Below, in pieces: positions 1 through 38,799 of a DNA stretch of 64,000 bases (positions are counted from its first letter, which is position 1; every line of letters starts with the position of its first letter). Made by a program: the position numbers and the translations under genes. Below the pieces are notes generated by a model. It made no database searches. It was given only the letters and a program-made list of their open reading frames with translations, and was not told the DNA's origin. The DNA comes from Pirellula sp. (GTDB lineage: Bacteria; Planctomycetota; Planctomycetia; Pirellulales; PNKZ01): contig PNKZ01000028.1 in assembly GCA_013822735.1 (NCBI GenBank), positions 1 to 64,000 on the forward strand. The letters run 5' to 3'.

Positions 1-43
1 CTTTGGTCCAGCTTCTCGCTCTAACCTCTAGCTTCTGTTCCCC

Positions 44-238
44 ACTTACGTCGACGGTTATCTATGCACTGCGCAGATAACTCCATCTATCAGCGCACAA
101 CCCCAAAACCCACAAGGGGTGCGCAGATAACTCGAGTTATCTGCGCAGGAAGATTTTGCGAATCGACGTAAGTCGGGAGTACGATCTGGGACTTACGACG
201 ATTTCCGGACACGTCGGCCTTACGGCTCGACGCTCGCC
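44..238 (-). repeat. Composite palindromic intergenic element, copy A (inverse orientation)
   Basis: Reverse complement of this region reads through nearly the same series of palindromes as 26069-26289; contains TGCGCAGATAACTCGAGTTATCTGCGCA at 120-147. Confidence 0.9.
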
Positions 239-26068: not shown

Positions 26069-26289
26069 GGCGAGCGTCGAGCCGTGAGGCCGACGTGTCT
26101 GGAAAGCGACGTAAGTCCTAAATCGCGAATCTGACTTACGTCGAATCCCAATTTCGTCGTGCGCAGATAACTCGAGTTATCTGCGCACCCCTTGTGGGTT
26201 TTGAGGTTGTGCGCAGATAGTTTCGGTTATCTGCGCGGTGCATAAAATACCGTCGACGTAAGTCTCAAATCCGAGCAGCGACTTACGTC
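26069..26289 (+). repeat. Composite palindromic intergenic element, copy B
   Basis: Arm GGCGAGCGTCGAGCCGTGAGGCCGACGTGTC (26069-26099), hairpin CGACGTAAGTC/GACTTACGTCG (26107-26143), perfect 28-bp palindrome (26160-26187), CCCCTTGTGGGTTTTGAGGTTGT, second hairpin GCGCAGATA/TATCTGCGC (26211-26236), hairpin CGACGTAAGTC/GACTTACGTC (26254-26289). Confidence 0.92.
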
Positions 26290-26292
26290 AAA

Positions 26293-26395
26293 GTAGTCCG
26301 CCGCTCCGCGGCGGAAATGGGCCTTCCCGATTAATGCCGACGGCCATCGCGCGCGACGACGCAACGTGCTCTTCCGCCACGGATTGGCGGACTAC
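26293..26395. repeat. Inverted repeat GTAGTCCGCCGCTCCGCGGCGGAA ... TTCCGCCACGGATTGGCGGACTAC
   Basis: Long imperfect terminal inverted repeat directly adjacent to composite element copy B, between convergent dprA and M42 peptidase. Confidence 0.8.
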
Positions 26396-26486
26396 GATGA
26401 ATTGCCAAAGATCAACTCGTCACATTAGCAATGTGGACGAGCAATCTCCAGGCAACTTTTGGCCGGCCAAAATCTAGGCTCGACAA

Positions 26487-38710: not shown

Positions 38711-38724
38711 TAGCACGTGATTGG

Positions 38725-38799
38725 GGCGAGCGTCGAGCCGTAAGGCCGACGTGTCTTCTGATTGCAACCACACGTCGGCCTTACGGCTCGACGCTCGCC
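38725..38799. repeat. Inverted repeat GGCGAGCGTCGAGCCGTAAGGCCGACGTGTC ... CACGTCGGCCTTACGGCTCGACGCTCGCC
   Basis: Complete two-arm copy; single arms also occur at 208-238 and 26069-26099. Confidence 0.92.

Follow-up and report, generated by a model that had tools for sequence, protein, structure and literature searches.

The window analysed here, a 64,000-nucleotide stretch of a Pirellula sp. contig read as a whole, contains a non-coding block of nested palindromes that occurs twice, which raises the question of what such a block is and how it came to be repeated. The first-pass annotation, made from the letters of the window, had described two copies in opposite orientation and preferred a structured RNA/DNA element or a non-autonomous mobile element to a chance origin. 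A BLASTN self-comparison of the window confirmed the pair: positions 44-238 (minus) aligned with 26069-26263 (plus) over 195 bp at 85.6% identity (E 1.5e-61), far above chance, and both copies have a perfect 28-bp palindrome (26160-26187 and 120-147). The core consists of hairpin A (11-17-11), site B1 (28 bp), a 22-bp spacer, site B2 (28 bp) and hairpin A', and the 39-bp geometry of hairpin A is identical in other copies and in other species. Both window copies keep this order as claimed, but they are not both complete, as hairpin A' of the copy at 44-238 is missing its right half; the contig starts 43 bp away, the promoter module of this copy falls outside the contig start, and its predicted RNA would read on the plus strand.

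The limits of the element had to be redrawn on both sides (Table 1). The palindromes make up the rear part of an element of about 400 bases, and a conserved module carries it beyond the annotated end at 26289 to about 26472. The left arm GGCGAGCGTCGAGCCG (26069-26099; GGCGAGCG...), counted earlier as part of the element, is a separate adjoining repeat, since it also occurs without the element at 38723-38756 and 38770-38799. In the form GGCGAGCGTCGAGCCGTRAGGCCGACGTGTC this repeat was seen at those two sites, at 26069-26099 and at 205-238, and it forms an inverted pair as well. Several further intergenic palindrome families (TTTAGCCCCCGGTCGGCGACCGGGGGC, GGGAACGCCCTCCGTGGCGTTCC, GTAGTCCGCCGCTCCGCGGCGGA, TTGTAGGCACACTCCGTGTGCC and TAGGGTGGGTCGAGCAAAGCGAGGCCCACGCGG) cluster with the element, in the left flanks of L004-L025, at 26293-26395 of L001 and in the right inserts of L005, L011 and L018. 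The insert at 26293-26395 is replaced by other inserts, or absent, in other copies.

Table 1. Coordinates of the element and adjoining features in the window
Feature	Position	Strand	Remarks
Whole element	26069..26472	-	non-coding transcription unit (predicted), read right to left
Hairpin A, 11-17-11, GCGACGTAAGT ... ACTTACGTCGA	26106..26144	-	
Site B1, TGCGCAGATAA-CTCGAG-TTATCTGCGCA, 11-6-11	26160..26187	-	perfect palindrome; arms covary across subfamilies
22-bp conserved spacer CCCCTTGTGGGTTTTGRGGTTG	26188..26209	-	near-invariant, n = 30 copies
Site B2, 28 bp	26210..26237	-	imperfect palindrome; outer arms as in B1
Hairpin A', 11-17-11, TCGACGTAAGT ... ACTTACGTCAA	26253..26291	-	
Optional insert	26293..26395	.	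between inverted repeats 26293-26316 / 26372-26395 (GTAGTCCGCCGC...)
boxA-like antiterminator GATCTTTGGCAATT	26400..26413	-	
Predicted -10, TAATGT	26422..26427	-	consensus
Predicted -35, TGGAGA	26445..26450	-	consensus; 17 bp from -10
Upstream box TTTTGGCCGGCCAAAA	26457..26472	-	adjoins -35; conserved in all subfamilies
Second copy	44..201	+	A' arm 44-54, B2 70-97, spacer 98-119, B1 120-147, A 163-201
Adjoining separate repeat GGCGAGCGTCGAGCCGTGAGGCCGACGTGTC	26069..26099	.	outside the element

The two copies proved to be members of a large family. In the window's own genome (G000; 6.88 Mb, 38 contigs) BLASTN scored 40 copies, and a covariance model built from 30 copies found 57 core sites. The arm CGACGTAAGT alone occurred 208 times against 4 for its reversed control, an excess that exposed a second subfamily, F2, with other arm sequences and 148 bp between its ends. 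The central 29-mer of F2 had 31 matches at up to three mismatches and its control none, a count that is a lower bound. With three sites matched by both searches, the total is at least 85 copies, given here as about 85-90. It is virtually certain that the element is real and multi-copy, and a single pair in the genome, the finding that would have spoken against the annotation, is not what was observed.

The family has a narrow host range. Matches among 118 relatives were confined to two species of the same genus, and a strict pattern run over 84,980 GTDB species recovered only the MAGs UWPOB_PLAC3 and MAG-44, which are those same two species. The same pattern had no match in IMG/VR, and a phage origin was dropped on that ground. 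These two species have subfamilies of their own, F3 (arm TGCGCATCTAT; cores in G003) and F4 (arm TGCGCACTTC; copies L106-L134 in G001 and G003), which have in common with the G000 families the A arms, the TGCGCA-N16/17-TGCGCA geometry and a spacer beginning CCC(C/T)T, and no cores were found in the sister species G002. Rfam covariance models gave no match at gathering score and otherwise chance-level hits, and literature searches returned no description of the repeat. By its distribution among these sequences, the family is restricted to one genus.

Homology extends to the right of the core into a module 170-440 bp away, of constant polarity and ending TTTTGGCCGGCC. Read on the opposite strand, this module is a promoter by consensus match, with a GGCCGGCCAAAA box, a -35, a spacing of 16-18 bp and a -10. 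The -35 is TGGAGA in F1, TGGAAA in F2 and TTGAAC in F4, and the -10 is TANNNT in F1 and F4 and GATAAT, GAGAAT or GACAAT in F2; the geometry called in this way is shared by four subfamilies in three species. The upstream box TTTTGGCCGGCCAAAA may be an UP element or a regulator site, and GGCCGGCC may likewise serve the genus as a box of the regulator or UP type. Solo GGCCGGCCAAAA promoters were noticed near other genes (L139, L142 and L144), and the modules lacking a nearby core (L142, L144) lie, by eye, upstream of gene starts as expected of promoters. About 9 nt past the -10 stands GATCTTTGGCAATT or GGTTCTTTGACAATTTGG, a boxA-like antiterminator. Neither module nor boxA had been noticed before, nor had the separateness of the left arm or the further subfamilies; the module and boxA give the element a strand and would make it a transcription unit. 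We think it probable that it is transcribed from this module, and its geometry would place the promoter at about 26422-26472, with a 321-nt RNA that starts near 26415 and ends near 26095.

The boxA assignment is borne out by numbers and position. The 12-mer TCTTTGRCAATT occurs 34 times in G000 (control 0). Elements account for 29 of these: 27 are no more than 500 bp from a core, where 0.47 would be expected, and two adjoin a promoter module where a contig ends; the five outside elements include one in the 23S rRNA operon and two in tRNA arrays. It reads toward the core in 23 of the 27, the four exceptions being F2 copies with boxA on the opposite side. Of the 34 boxA sites listed for G001, 21 have an exact A hairpin no more than 450 bp away, against 0.28 expected, and in all 21 the hairpin is downstream; the rrn leader of this species contains TGTTCTTTGACAATTTGG, the same boxA. 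For comparison, the gamma-proteobacterial consensus is GYTCTTTAANA (PMC5725501). Totals of the 12-mer were 34 in G000, 58 in G001 and 4 in the element-free sister G002. boxA is not universal in the elements, since G003 has only 4 of the 12-mers despite its F3 cores and F4 has the promoter without boxA; in F2 and F3 it is degenerate in most copies. Taken together, a boxA that closely matches the one in the genus's rrn leader, a promoter upstream of it and a product predicted to be untranslated are what a boxA-controlled stable RNA would present, and an element with its own promoter and an antitermination signal of the rRNA/tRNA type most likely makes a structured non-coding RNA.

Several boxA sites were of note elsewhere. 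Those between tRNA genes in two long tRNA arrays (L199, L200) suggest antitermination of tRNA operons in this planctomycete. A boxA-like site was also seen at 1036-1047 of L202, upstream of a gene for an HU-like DNA-binding protein. G010, of the same order, has 20 of the 12-mers, well over other relatives outside the genus, and may hold a comparable family.

With confidence a little above even, we lean towards a genus-restricted, dispersed, non-autonomous and insertion-polymorphic family in which each copy would be a small non-coding RNA gene. In sequence terms, a promoter, often with an rRNA-type boxA, stands at one end and points into four palindromes around a conserved linker. That the RNA is functional in its own right we rate slightly below an even chance. 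The structural evidence can be read in more than one way. The B arms of 14 site sequences contained 26 double-changed cells, a value reached in 0 of 500 shuffles; because the arms are symmetric, this covariation suits a DNA palindrome or site as well as an RNA hairpin. Within F1 alone covariation was nil, and the long nested hairpin folded by RNAalifold for F1 is without it. A strand test by G-U versus A-C mismatches at first seemed supportive and was dropped, as it depends on a few inherited positions.

These observations bear on a rather unlikely alternative, that of a DNA-only miniature transposon or recombination element, whose palindromes would be pairs of half-sites for a transposase or tyrosine recombinase and whose transcription would be incidental. 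The 11-6-11 layout of B resembles a Xer/dif site, that of A being 11-17-11, and the four half-sites that make up the two B sites change in concert from one subfamily to the next. F2 measures exactly 148 bp in 24 copies although its spacers are saturated, those copies having been gathered by a fixed-length pattern that length variants would escape, and such fixed lengths may suit a rigid DNA-protein geometry better than RNA loops. Insertion polymorphism and the F1 fold lacking covariation also agree with it. It leaves unexplained a promoter retained in every subfamily and a boxA, elsewhere mainly a feature of rRNA and tRNA operons, pointing inward in 21 of 21 cases in G001 and 23 of 27 in G000. 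Mapping of the end motifs CGACGTAAGT and GGCCGGCC found no enzyme or other gene between ends, and so no autonomous element bounded by terminal inverted repeats, in the 20 regions examined, a part of the genome made up of loci with a distant or missing partner, several copies running off contig ends. An integron attC and a group II intron domain V were dropped by eye, having no matching core motifs, and a CRISPR array because the spacer is conserved among copies while the palindromes differ.

Many of the 76 contig ends of the assembly fall inside elements, between A' and the promoter module: on the core side at C28:1 (window 1-43), C31:1, C4:1, C14:1 and the ends of C18, C22 and C25, and on the promoter side at the ends of C19, C15 and C32 and at C33:1. 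A long insert, identical repeats or hairpin dropout could have broken the assembly there, and a fuller copy could hide at such breaks.

The flanks of six G000 loci were placed in the sister genomes, where the empty sites that the annotation had advised looking for were found. L011 is empty in G001 and G003, where only a few bases separate the convergent stop codons, and G001 also lacks an element at L017. At L022, G002 and G003 have an empty site and G001 holds another subfamily. At the 3' end of dprA, the site of the window copy, G001 has an F2-like element (L169) and G002 and G003 have none. Differing subfamilies also occupy the shared loci L137/L110, L156/L111, L036/L130, L027/L132 and L009/L058. 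Evidently, loci are gained and lost and occupied loci change subfamily, by conversion or by re-insertion. We regard the loci as very probably insertion-polymorphic. The annotation's reading is supported in part: the ~85-90 copies, polymorphic loci and arms covarying between subfamilies bear out a structured or mobile element as against chance. No target-site duplication was visible by eye in F2 flanks, where the palindromic ends obscure it.

Gene context, assigned with a home-made gene caller, showed that copies prefer convergent gene junctions: of 30 F1 copies, 11 were convergent, 8 codirectional and 2 divergent, with the remainder at contig ends. Loci that serve the host between convergent genes, as regulatory antisense RNAs or 3'-end transcription insulators selected site by site, would account for this preference; the predicted RNA would enter the 3' end of the facing gene, and different species have elements at the same loci. 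Harmless insertions show a convergent bias too, however, many loci are empty in sisters, G002 has none at all and no common function was noticed among the flanking genes, so that we hold this explanation to be quite unlikely.

High copy number, palindromes, an intergenic 3' location and species-specific variants are also what REPIN/BIME-type repeats moved by a RAYT transposase would show, and RAYT genes had been suggested as a source. None of the 24 RAYT-like (Y1_Tnp, PF01797) loci in the four genus genomes (G000-G003) is flanked by core motifs, the element is a composite of about 400 bp with its own promoter, and no GTAG-type REP hairpin was noticed on informal inspection; this origin is very improbable.

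Some copies have open frames on the transcribed strand. In F2 (L031-L050, L137-L156) one frame is free of stops in 24 of 24 copies (NRRK..AL..NAH...VRVGALTNKGAH...VRTGQGALRGLTSI), and in F4 (L106-L134, without boxA) GGAG...ATG comes after the promoter, and the frame at this ATG (MENRRKCSKI...) is open in 19 of 19. Remnants or copies of a protein-coding gene, with the GGAG as a ribosome-binding-site-like motif, would explain these frames but are barely credible, because F2 and F4 have no third-position excess, synonymous excess or codon periodicity in any frame and F1 is open in 0 of 21 copies in all three frames of the transcribed strand.

For the small RNA gene that we favour, the following course can be proposed. 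Housekeeping RNA polymerase would start in the module, and NusB/S10 loaded by boxA would let it complete a heavily folded, untranslated RNA of about 300-400 nt. The repeated palindrome arms, one arm in both B sites and a universal arm in A, would serve as binding sites, in the form of RNA hairpins or of DNA, for a putative trans-acting protein, which would also copy elements into tolerated sites between convergent genes; no mobilising gene was found in the regions examined. A more far-reaching version is tentative and on the doubtful side: a class of bacterial mobile elements each of which is a stable-RNA gene in its own right, with an rRNA-type promoter/antiterminator cassette and ~85-90 transcribed copies, whose species-specific hairpin arms co-evolve with a trans-acting RNA/DNA-reading protein that copies or converts elements, subfamilies being replaced at the same loci. 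Dispersed repeats of bacteria are usually described as inert palindromes, and here a large population with fast turnover bears the antiterminator of rRNA and tRNA operons. If transcribed, it would tie up a sizeable amount of Nus factors and constitute a large RNA pool. Because one subfamily replaces another while the locus stays the same, the family makes a clear case for studying the spread and conversion of repeats in bacteria, and the findings suggest that, in Planctomycetota, boxA can be a mark of genes for non-coding RNA.

Among known systems, REPINs are pairs of short REP hairpins, promoterless and RAYT-linked (PMC8049555). The element resembles them in its tens to hundreds of short, palindromic, non-autonomous, intergenic and long-lived copies per genome, but differs in having a promoter, boxA, no RAYT linkage and four palindromes at fixed spacings, in an A-B-spacer-B-A architecture plus promoter module instead of two inverted REP hairpins. 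With MITEs it shares terminal-type inverted repeats, the lack of coding capacity and clean empty sites in sisters (L011, L017, L022); unlike them it is directional, with promoter and antiterminator, and no parent element was found in the regions examined. The likeness to Xer/dif is limited to the 28-bp, 11-6-11 layout of the B sites, which here are paired, dispersed in tens of copies and variable in arm sequence. boxA leads rRNA, tRNA and CRISPR-array transcription units (PMC5725501, PMC7862264), and the element, as predicted from sequence, has the same succession of promoter and boxA before a structured or repetitive untranslated RNA, with a boxA identical to that of the genus's rrn leader; in contrast to those units it is short, dispersed in ~85-90 copies and insertion-polymorphic, and it is itself neither rRNA, tRNA nor CRISPR. 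The element behaves like a REPIN or MITE population and is built like a boxA-led stable RNA gene, but it has no RAYT link, no known parent transposon and no matching Rfam family.
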